This document shows positions 20,112 to 28,395 of a stretch of 64,000 nt of DNA, in pieces. Source of the stretch: Sutcliffiella sp. FSL R7-0096 (GTDB lineage: Bacteria > Bacillota > Bacilli > Bacillales > Bacillaceae_I); assembly GCF_038595065.1 (NCBI RefSeq), contig NZ_CP152003.1:1344001-1408000 (forward strand). Direction: 5' to 3'. The position numbers and the translations under genes are program-made. Under the pieces are notes generated by a model that had not been told where the DNA came from, made no database searches, and saw only the letters and a list, made by a program, of their open reading frames with translations. Positions within the stretch are counted from its first letter, which is position 1. Each line of letters opens with the position of its first letter.

Positions 20112-20177
20112 AAACACCTTCCATCTAAGATGGAAGGTGTTTTTTGTTCCATCTAAGATGGAAGGTGTTTTTTGTTC
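20112..20177 (+). terminator. Bidirectional terminator with a tandem partial duplication
   Basis: AACACCTTCCATC, loop TAA, GATGGAAGGTGTT is a perfect 13-bp stem followed by T. The 28-base unit beginning TTCCATCTAAG at 20119 is repeated exactly at 20147-20174. The flanking T and A runs allow use by the YjcZ pair and by the convergent membrane-protein gene. Confidence 0.85.
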
Positions 20178-26232: not shown

Positions 26233-26658
26233 TTATTGTATGCCTTCTTTAATCTGGGCAGATATTTCTTGCAGATCCTGAGGTGTATAGTCACTTTGGT
26301 TTGATTTCCACACTGCTCCAAAGCCGTCGCCCTTGCCGTAGCGTGGCAGTATGTGGAGATGATAATGGAAAACAGACTGCCCGGCAGCTTCTCCATTGTT
26401 ATTCAACAGGTTCAACCCGATTGGTTGGAACTTTTCTTTAATGGAATTGGCTATTTTTGGTACCACTTTAAAAAGGTTTTCGGCTATTTCTGGTGTCAGC
26501 TCATAGATGTTTTCTTTATGTACTTTAGGGATTACCAGCGTATGACCTTTTGTTACCTGGCTGATGTCAAGAAAAGCGAGGACATGCTCGTCTTCATAAA
26601 CCTTTGCGGCCGGAATATCACCATTAATTATTTTACAGAAAATACAATCACTCATCAT
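26233..26658 (-). CDS. hit: Hit, HIT-family nucleotide hydrolase
   Basis: A 141-residue HIT protein with the N-terminal zinc-type pair CIFCKI, the nucleotide-binding loop LAFLDISQVTKGHTLVIPK and the histidine triad HYHLHILP. It hydrolyses purine nucleoside phosphoramidates or related AMP conjugates. GAGGTGAT precedes two consecutive ATG codons (26658 and 26655); either may be used. The gene points away from ecsA across a 1-kb gene-free stretch, keeping the B. subtilis arrangement. Confidence 0.93.
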   Translation of the reverse strand: MMSDCIFCKIINGDIPAAKVYEDEHVLAFLDISQVTKGHTLVIPKVHKENIYELTPEIAENLFKVVPKIANSIKEKFQPIGLNLLNNNGEAAGQSVFHYHLHILPRYGKGDGFGAVWKSNQSDYTPQDLQEISAQIKEGIQ

Positions 26659-26687
26659 GGATCACCTCGGTAATTTGTTTTATCTAA

Positions 26688-26766
26688 GCAGGAAAAGAGC
26701 ACGACAGCACGGAAAATAACGGTTGTTTACAAATGCGAAAAAGCAACAAAGTATGCCAAAACAGCC
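26688..26766 (+). repeat. Family B MITE-like repeat, copy 2 (right half only)
   Basis: Contains GGAAAAGAGCACGACAG, ATAACGGTTGTTTAC and AGCAACAAAGTATG, ending AAAACAGC/C, matching the right halves of the full copies. The left end is missing. Confidence 0.8.
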
Positions 26767-26788
26767 TTTATCTATTTTACCATGTTTT

Positions 26789-27310
26789 GGACATGGATCC
26801 TAATAATGTCCTAAGGCAAATTAAACAAGCAAGAGCCGGAGCTCCTGCTTGCGAAGAAAGGGAAGAGAGGCAACAAGCTTCTCTATCTAAATAAGGAGAA
26901 GCCTACAAACAACATTTTAGCTTTCAAATAACTGTGTTTGATGAACACCTCATTTGATATTAAAAATGTGTCTAGTGGTCAGCTTTCCTGTTCAAGACAA
27001 CCATCCCCTTGTTACTGAGTTTTACAACTTTAGTAACGTGGCTATCGACTTAAGGTCTCTTTAACGAACACCTCTTTTTCAAAATGAATCAATCACAGGT
27101 TTCGACTTTAGAATAAAGTGTCGCCCGTAAGCACCTCATTTCTTCATCAATCGGAGTTACGTTATAGATGATCGTGTGGTTGCAGTCGGTTAAGTCCCGC
27201 AACGACAATAGAAATGTGTAACTTTATCGAGATCAAAGCAAAACTGTCTTTGACAGTCACCTCATCTACAAAGAAGTCAACTAAAGGCTTGTATAAGAGC
27301 CCCTCATTCC
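26789..27310. ncRNA. Candidate structured RNA locus: hairpin array with repeated CACCTCAT
   Basis: No open frame of note crosses this ~520-bp stretch between hit and ecsA. Hairpins follow one another: 26789-26811, 26826-26851 (10 of 11 pairs, CGGA loop), 26877-26902, 26934-26948, 26969-26999, 27011-27037, 27103-27123, 27155-27223 (with inner GTTGC/GCAAC) and 27243-27257 (perfect ACTGTC-TTT-GACAGT). The motif CACCTC(ATT) or CCCCTCATT occurs five times (26946, 27069, 27132, 27258, 27300), four of them overlapping or directly following a hairpin arm. As plus-strand RNA this motif could pair with GAGGUG ribosome sites. Strand, ends and promoter are not clear. I do not recognise a known RNA family. 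Confidence 0.4.
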
Positions 27311-27368
27311 CCTTCCTTACATATCATGCGCACTTTCGTTTAAATTATGTTATGGTAAAATTTAATTA

Positions 27369-27510
27369 GGCTCTTTTCTTGAAGATTGATGCGATTTGCT
27401 AGTAAAAATTCGGCAATTGGATTTTTTGCTGTTTACATACTTGAAAAATTTGCAAGAAGTATTTATTAGAAAGCAAGCAAAAGAGCACGTCGTATCGAAG
27501 ATAACGTACA
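27369..27510 (+). repeat. Family B MITE-like repeat, copy 3 (diverged, right end missing)
   Basis: Starts GGCTCTTTTCTTGAAGATTG and contains AAAATTCGGCAATTGGATTTTTT and AAAGAGCACGTCGTAT, then fades near 27510. With copy 2 it brackets the hairpin array. Confidence 0.75.
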
Positions 27511-27569
27511 ATAAAATTAATTTTGAGGTTATATTTCATATAGGTTACAGGGGGATTAAATTTTGAAAG

Positions 27570-27580
27570 GGGGTCAGACC
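27570..27580 (+). other. GGGTCAGACCC motif upstream of ecsA
   Basis: GGGTCAGACCC with flanking G and T lies about 75 bases before ecsA. The same core is found in the hairpin at 6960-6984. Confidence 0.35.
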
Positions 27581-27654
27581 CTTGAAGGAATTTCTCCCTC
27601 CATGTAGTACCTATACCTTATACATAAAATGGCTGGCAGAAAGGGTAGGTTGAT

Positions 27655-28395
27655 GTGAGTTTATTGGAGATTAGTGGGTTGACTGGTGGGTATACGAATC
27701 AGGCGGTGTTGAAGGATATTTCGTTTGAGGTGAAGCGAAATGAGCTGGTCGGATTGATTGGGCTTAATGGTGCCGGGAAGAGTACGACGATCAAGCATGT
27801 AATTGGTACGATGGAACCGAAGAAGGGATCCATCAAAATCGATGGCATTTCCATTCAAGAGGATACGACCAAATATCGCTCGACTTTCACTTTTATTCCG
27901 GAAACGCCGATTTTATATGATGAGCTGACATTATATGAACATCTTGAATTAACGGCGATGGCATATGGTCTATCAAAGGAGACTTTTGAAGAACGCCTTC
28001 ATCCATTATTGAAGGAATTCCGCATGGAAAAACGCCTAAAGTGGTTTCCGGCACACTTCTCTAAGGGAATGAAGCAGAAGGTGATGATTCTTGCAGCTTT
28101 CTTGATTGAACCGAAGTTATATATTGTGGACGAGCCATTTGTAGGCTTAGATCCACTTGCTATCCATTCCCTTTTAGAAATCATGGATAAAGCGAAAAAG
28201 AGTGGGGCCGGGATCCTCATGTCCACGCATATCCTCGCAACTGCGGAGAAGTACTGCGATTCCTTCGTAATACTGCATGAGGGTGAAGTCCGGGCAAAAG
28301 GAACGCTTCAAGAGCTTAGACAGCAGTTCCAAATGCCGATGGCTTCCTTAGATGATCTCTATATCCAGTTGACAAAGGAAGAGAGCAATGTTTAA
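27655..28395 (+). CDS. ecsA: EcsA, ABC transporter ATP-binding protein
   Basis: A 246-residue ABC ATPase with Walker A GLNGAGKST at 36-44, signature-region HFSKGMKQKV and Walker B LYIVDEPFVGLD. In B. subtilis EcsA-EcsB is needed for competence, secretion and intramembrane cleavage by RasP. Start is GTG 27655 preceded by AGGGTAGGTTGAT. It is the first gene of ecsABC and overlaps ecsB by 8 bases. Confidence 0.94.
   Translation: MSLLEISGLTGGYTNQAVLKDISFEVKRNELVGLIGLNGAGKSTTIKHVIGTMEPKKGSIKIDGISIQEDTTKYRSTFTFIPETPILYDELTLYEHLELTAMAYGLSKETFEERLHPLLKEFRMEKRLKWFPAHFSKGMKQKVMILAAFLIEPKLYIVDEPFVGLDPLAIHSLLEIMDKAKKSGAGILMSTHILATAEKYCDSFVILHEGEVRAKGTLQELRQQFQMPMASLDDLYIQLTKEESNV

Follow-up and report, generated by a model that had tools for sequence, protein, structure and literature searches.

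The stretch between hit and ecsA in Sutcliffiella sp. FSL R7-0096 is a real, conserved gene for a large folded RNA, read from the minus strand (Table 1). Its position, promoter type and terminator agree with those of Bvs196 (S357/ncr1670) and, as far as sequence comparison can tell, it is almost certainly a long ortholog of that RNA. It looks to be made in the developing spore. The shorter form is already known, so the RNA that the original prediction had called undescribed is in fact Bvs196/S357/ncr1670; the new elements are the modular make-up from two repeated motifs, A and B, the range of the RNA and its relocation. An RNA of the forespore whose deletion phenotype has been published thus proves far more widespread and modular than its description, and it lacks an Rfam family. 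The window is the whole stretch of DNA analysed, 64,000 nucleotides, and coordinates refer to it.

Description of the gene

The region predicted to be free of genes (about 520 bp, 26789-27310) is overlapped by short open reading frames only, of 53 amino acids at most. Indels in the family alignment of the RNA stretch are often not multiples of three, and the stretch is probably non-coding. Downstream of ecsA lie EcsB and EcsC. The five predicted motif sites were all found, the CACCTC type at 26946, 27069, 27132 and 27258 and CCCCTCATT at 27300, with start-to-start spacings of 123, 63, 126 and 42, and so were the hairpin ACTGTC-TTT-GACAGT and a G+C-rich hairpin at 26826-26851. Within the window alone the motif is unremarkable as a 12-mer with two mismatches (12 matches against 7.5 expected; 7 of 100 shuffles as high).

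The strand is indicated by several signals. The RNAalifold consensus fold has an energy of -83.8 kcal/mol on the minus strand against -42.6 on the plus strand, and constant G-U pairs exist in the minus reading only, being C-A in the plus reading. Two terminator-like sites were found, both on the minus strand; the stronger one (around 26825-26852) marks where the conserved block ends, and relatives preserve it. A plus-strand RNA, which had been proposed to offer CACCUC against ribosome binding sites, was rejected on the fold energy and the constant G-U pairs, and promoter and terminator also speak for the minus strand. The second option of the original prediction, a structured RNA ending at the minus-strand terminator, agrees with the fold, the promoter, the terminator and the G-U pairs.

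No sigma-70-type promoter was found in 26500-27700. We take the sigmaF/sigmaG consensus to be GYATA/GMATR at -35, with CATNMTA at -10 for sigmaG. The strict form, (GMATR or GYATA)-N16-19-CATNMTA, was identified in 56 of 118 distinct hit-ecsA gaps, compared with 0/118 on the other strand and 2/590 shuffles. With a loose -35, the form to which the window's own promoter belongs, the figures were 82/118, 5/118 and 21/590; CATNMTA alone occurred in 110/118 gaps, against 38/118 on the reverse strand and 189/590 shuffles. The promoter is described here as sigmaF/sigmaG-like. The gaps came from two sets (29 + 100 = 129, of which 118 distinct ones were used); as these still include species that are nearly identical, the counts do not represent independent events.

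In another part of the window, at 20119-20177, a 28-bp unit (TTCCATCTAAGATGGAAGGTGTTTTTTG) is present in 2.1 identical tandem copies; it looks like a duplicated terminator.

Table 1. Features of the hit-ecsA region, in window coordinates.
Feature	Position	Strand	Remarks
hit (hinT), HIT-domain protein	26233..26658	-	Pfam
Candidate extended -10 of hit, ATGGTAAAAT	26774-26783		
Whole RNA gene, predicted transcript ~499 nt	26818..27316	-	ends deduced from the promoter, P1 and the terminator
Hairpin of the intrinsic terminator; the T-rich tail reaches 26818	~26825-26852	-	terminator scan; family alignment
Closing helix P1, 3' strand, before terminator	26856..26870	-	
Motif A copy 3 (AATGAGGTGTTCATCAAACAC) and hairpin	26934..26954	-	helices 9, 10
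Motif B (AAGGGGATGGTTGTCTTGAAC)	26990..27010	-	
Inner helix (GUUACU/AGUAAC), located from motif A copy 2 toward motif B	27011..27037	-	helix 7
Motif A copy 2 (AAAGAGGTG)	27055..27077	-	
Motif A variant (AATGAGGTGCTTACGGGCGAC)	27120..27140	-	helices 4-6
Hairpin element specific to the lineage, UCGUUGCGGGACUUAACC; complements 16S rRNA exactly over 18 nt, starting at position 1099 of the extracted 16S	27188..27205	-	
Motif A copy 1 (ATGAGGTGACTGTCAAAGACAGT) and hairpin	27243..27266	-	helix 2; also scores as weak terminator-like site
Closing helix P1, 5' strand	27302..27316	-	overlapped by degenerate motif copy AATGAGGGGC at 27300-27309
-10 element CATGATA	27322..27328	-	sequence; matches CATNMTA
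-35 element ACATA, 17 nt before -10	27346..27350	-	sequence; loose match to GYATA/GMATR
Candidate extended -10 of ecsA, TATGGTAAAAT	27351-27361		
ecsA, ABC transporter ATPase	27655..28395	+	Pfam

Structure of the transcript

The RNA is structured and has a covarying closing helix, P1. The P1 stems differ widely among loci, and their pairing score was 21.3 against 17.1 (SD 0.28) in 30 permutations where the 3' strands were swapped between loci; 103 of 126 loci were scored, the others being 18 with no terminator found by the scan, three with no 5' end and two with no motif. Among the 18 family sequences, 95.8% of the cells of a 68-pair structure pair, and 10 pairs (24 cells) are changed on both sides. 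Each pairing or covariation measure of this structure lay above all 500 shuffles, in a test that ignores relatedness and whose sliding control flatters the result because the structure comes from the same alignment. RNAs were delimited in 84 of the 118 gaps, 47 of them diverse, and 45 and 25 were used; the mean folding z-score was -5.8, with 25 of 25 diverse RNAs below -1.

The inner helix between A and B scored 11.9, compared with 10.7 (SD 0.15) in exchanged loci, for 151 pairs from 91 loci with related species kept. RNAalifold gave no pairs on 50 divergent ABA stretches, and the second profile model was for this reason sequence-only. Pairing between B and the strand that follows A was also tried: three neighbouring pairs were compatible in 128, 132 and 111 of 144 cases and the score was 11.8 against 11.5 permuted (SD 0.1). 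Two other registers had a higher z, and the pairing is not claimed.

Repeated elements

Motif A is AAUGAGGUGUUURUYAAAGAC, the predicted motif as read on the RNA, and motif B is AAGGGGAUGGU-NNNN-UUGAAC. In the 118 distinct gaps A has 391 copies, with one on the opposite strand, and B has 177, with none there. One A copy per gap was selected for in 100 of the 129 gaps, which were fetched via one A-type motif; the remainder of the copies were not. The commonest order is ABABA (37/118 gaps), followed by AAA (14). Of 154 AB pairs standing next to each other, 120 have B 60-69 nt after A, the spacing being about 62 nt, and in the window the copies at 26946, 27001-27010, 27069, 27132 and 27258 follow each other by a step of about 63 or its double. 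Copy 2 of motif A is spelled AATGAGGTG in 16 of the 17 other family genomes and is AATGTGGTG-like in one. In some Rossellomorea-like loci the first copy resembles, in our reading, an A/B hybrid, which suggests that A and B may both derive from one unit. A second RNA locus was not evident in the window's genome, where the motif with up to two mismatches gave 57 matches compared with 41 in the control.

The UGAGGUG core of A is predicted to be paired (unpaired probability 0.13-0.29, against a mean of 0.34 over the RNAs). Motif A as a whole is near the average (0.32), its AAAG part being more open. A UCAUU able to pair with the core stands upstream of 38% of 363 copies, compared with 8% in shuffles. 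A small hairpin inside A was considered as a conserved feature and rejected, the mutual information being weak; the regular expression of this test fixes part of the motif, so invariance at those positions is circular. Given this weak mutual information, motif A looks mainly sequence-constrained.

The window's family also has the hairpin complementary to 16S rRNA. Its core, GGACUUAACC, is invariant in 18/18 family genomes. The exact 18-nt complement was identified in 6 of the 118 gaps, including the window's; several other family members carry a C-to-U change that keeps G-U pairing, and one (G017/L026) has a true mismatch to 16S. In the other 112 gaps the longest exact run is 8-13 nt, like the reverse strand and shuffles. 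A general 16S antisense role was rejected, complementarity outside the family being at background.

Distribution among genomes

The RNA is present in all 18 family genomes. The stretch was identified in 15/15 genomes of the same genus, with 78-97% identity, and in both family genomes of other genera, with 71% and 75% identity (the latter over 150 bases only). In the 18-genome alignment most of 26780-27360 is conserved about as well as the hit gene or better, and the flanks, 26680-26760 and 27380-27520, are hardly shared among relatives. The original prediction had placed the stretch between two truncated repeats. The repeat at 27370-27530 is real and belongs to a dispersed family, of which the genome has at least 40 matches counting this one, the others with 75-83% identity; it is hardly shared by relatives, being absent from that place in them. 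The mobile or decayed origin suggested on account of these repeats does not fit the conservation in 18/18 family genomes.

A covariance search was the first of the checks proposed, and the model of the core from the window matched 74 of 199 genomes of the order at E <=0.1; neighbours were checked in 30 of the 74, and weak matches may be due to chance. The 30 loci, 23 of them outside the genus, were adjacent to ecsA in 30 cases and to hit in 29, synteny not being part of the query; in the locus without hit (L074) the contig ends there. A scan of named records gave at least 120 loci: 100 with both neighbours, 10 with hit only, six with ecsA only and four with neither in the fetched DNA. Names are given for 80 of these and, among the matches listed, comprise Bacillus (including members of the B. 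subtilis and B. licheniformis groups), Priestia, Neobacillus, Cytobacillus, Metabacillus, Rossellomorea, Peribacillus, Litchfieldia and others. Single loci came from records titled Pseudomonas and Paenibacillus, which may be mislabelled.

The second profile matched 46 of 299 genomes of the class at E <=0.01, 23 of these being among the 27 order genomes in the matches listed. Of 21 order loci that were read, 17 lie between hit and ecsA. Outside the order, nine of 23 matches were read: G217 and G219 have the RNA between hit and ecsA, and the seven found elsewhere are probably chance matches. The sigG gene was present in 27/27 order genomes among those listed, which gives no contrast between presence and absence of the RNA. 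Of the four order genomes with no profile match, all with sigG, G029 has one motif A in the gap, and G108 has a divergent locus that keeps the promoter, P1 and the terminator but in which motif A is not clear. In G074 and G051 the hit-ecsA gap is short, with neither motif nor match, which indicates that not every spore former has the RNA.

Some loci have additional elements. Between the RNA terminator and hit, L025 (G016) carries a long array of GATTGAAACA-like repeats and L055 and L056 an array of repeats of about 60 nt (AACCCTTTTTAGAACACTTTCCTC...). In L066 and L067 an insert of several hundred bp lies between ecsA and the RNA promoter, and both promoter and RNA are spared.

Four of the 21 order loci (G124, G095, G056 and G055) adjoin a gene whose product resembles the small spore protein SspO, and are divergent from that gene. 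In all four genomes the hit-ecsA gap measures 144-194 bp and contains no motif; conversely, no motif was found within 3.1 kb around sspO in six of six tested genomes with the RNA at hit-ecsA. This comparison of loci shows the RNA to be a gene in its own right rather than a cis element belonging to hit or ecsA, since it stands beside an sspO-like gene where the usual gap is nearly emptied. L078 (apparently the same locus as that of G124) and L113 are also of the sspO type. The sspO-linked loci L205, L212, L213, L216, L078 and L113 have a shorter RNA whose motifs are of this same type; a CATCATA promoter element is present in L113, and L205/L078 has two tandem copies. In L115 and L181 RNA copies were identified with no hit or ecsA in the fetched 8 kb.

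Comparison with known RNAs

The Rfam scan, also among the proposed checks, gave no match in the window at the gathering threshold (Rfam 15). The best weak match over 26650-27660 had E 0.36, and two weak matches at a permissive E-value were taken as chance. In 17 related loci only BsrG and 6S were matched, both outside the RNA; the BsrG match, at L213:1829-2098, is near the sspO-type RNA.

PMC9147052 describes Bvs196 as a 294-nt, forespore-specific RNA of B. velezensis, located between hinT and ecsA and expressed under sigmaF and mainly sigmaG. Deletion spores had reduced heat and UV resistance and raised formaldehyde resistance, the RNA bound spo0A and sspN-tlp mRNA in vitro, and conservation was reported in 253 Bacillus genomes by BLASTn (PMC9147052). 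The B. subtilis homolog is named S357 in the introduction and S547 in the discussion of that paper. A passage of PMC4410918 equates S357 with ncr1670, and ncr1670, located at hinT-ecsA, is tabulated among Hfq-associated RNAs with a ratio of 2.77 (PMC3574147). The words motif, Rfam and GAGG are absent from the main text on Bvs196 (PMC9147052), and a search of the text of open-access papers yielded nothing on the A/B repeats, on the longer form or on the form linked to sspO.

The RNA described here shares with Bvs196 the hinT (hit)-ecsA position, a promoter of the sigmaF/sigmaG type, its own terminator toward hit and a conserved, structured nature. Sequence homology shows in motif A, of which B. 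inaquosorum, B. tequilensis, B. mojavensis and B. nakamurai each have three copies in the gap; these relatives represent B. velezensis and B. subtilis 168 in the comparison. Three Bacillus loci with three motif A copies, L136, L211 and L080, served as stand-ins for B. velezensis, L136 and L211 having the same sequence. B. nakamurai is close to B. velezensis. In the three stand-in loci, two of them identical, a 294-nt RNA begun 4 or 7 nt after the -10 would end in the 3' arm of the terminator or just past it. The length differs, 294 nt for Bvs196 against about 499 nt here; this makes it a length variant and is compatible with homology. The short form of the stand-in loci lacks motif B, the ABABA order and the 16S-complementary hairpin, whereas the window's RNA has motif B and the hairpin; in the B. 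subtilis-group gaps that were read only A was found.

Other RNAs are less similar. CsfG, a conserved forespore RNA under sigmaF and sigmaG (PMC9147052), lies between ylbG and ylbH and has CU-rich conserved stretches (PMC3574147); here the neighbours are hit and ecsA and the conserved A/B motifs are purine-rich, so the RNA is not assigned to CsfG. OLE, GOLLD and ROOL are also large and strongly folded, but the window has no match to an Rfam family. RNAs of the CsrB/RsmZ type carry many copies of one short motif, and CsrA sites are GGA in hairpin loops. The RNA shares the many copies of a short motif, but A has no GGA (B has one) and the core of A is predicted to be paired, which sets it apart from that type.

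Possible roles

As the long form of the forespore Bvs196 RNA, the transcript would start at its own sigmaF/sigmaG-type promoter, run toward hit and end at its own terminator. It would fold into several similar domains in which the sequence-conserved A/B elements may serve as repeated binding sites, most likely for a putative forespore RNA-binding protein. In this way the RNA could serve spore maturation as an RNP scaffold or as an RNA that collects protein, broadly resembling the CsrB-type multi-site RNAs but with a different motif. Repeated protein sites are suggested by an element under sequence constraint that recurs between variable stems, with regular spacing, in a tightly folded closed RNA. 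The identity with Bvs196 and such a scaffold with repeated protein-binding domains, taken together, have about an even chance of being correct. The repeats of motif A could instead be building blocks of a tertiary structure. A wider proposal is more tentative, and we consider it somewhat doubtful as a whole: a wide class of forespore RNAs in Bacilli, with Bvs196 as one example, built by duplication of a 62-nt A/B unit (usually two AB domains and a last A), mobile as a whole gene (at hit-ecsA in most genomes, beside sspO in others, and usually with one locus per genome among the matches seen), carrying a putative spore RNA-binding protein or forming a spore RNP, to which the Sutcliffiella family would have added a 16S-pairing hairpin. 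The repeated motifs show which nucleotides to mutate and, by the stand-in mapping, differ from the published target regions.

The strongest alternative, although rather unlikely, is the one proposed for Bvs196, an antisense sRNA that acts in trans on spore mRNAs (spo0A, sspN-tlp) by pairing. In PMC9147052, microscale thermophoresis showed binding to both mRNAs, lost on site mutation and partly regained, and the deletion strain had changed mRNA levels and spore resistance. In the three stand-in loci, however, the tested target regions (nt 74-131 and 109-124) map between A copies 1 and 2, where they touch none of the conserved motifs, and the published target part is not obviously alignable in other genera. 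With the target regions so placed, pairing with mRNA alone cannot explain the deep conservation of A and B. Also against it, spo0A had rank 120 in one predictor.

The RNA might also be a decoy that holds small ribosomal subunits in the forespore, binding 30S through A (GAGGUG) and B, near-complements of the 16S 3' end, and through the 18-nt complement. The anti-SD duplex energies in 12-nt windows, -9.5 for A and -8.9 for B compared with -2.0 kcal/mol for all windows (5th percentile -9.5), are in line with it, as is the invariant core of the family's hairpin. We regard this decoy as improbable: mimicry of ribosome binding sites is disfavoured by the predicted pairing of the UGAGGUG core and by a conserved anti-SD mismatch in A (U instead of G), and 16S complementarity is at background outside the family.

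A leader or antiterminator of hit or ecsA would account for the usual place of the RNA, but this is very improbable, the RNA having its own promoter and a terminator that precedes the hit promoter candidate, and standing beside an sspO-like gene in four genomes. Least credible of all is a plus-strand RNA or a decayed mobile repeat, which the flanking repeat family would favour and which the conservation, the covariation, the strand signals and the position of that family outside the conserved block contradict.

Finally, the neighbouring genes ecsA and ecsB are among the sporulation-defective entries in the table of a B. subtilis screen (PMC4703394), according to which the gene adjoining the RNA matters for sporulation too.
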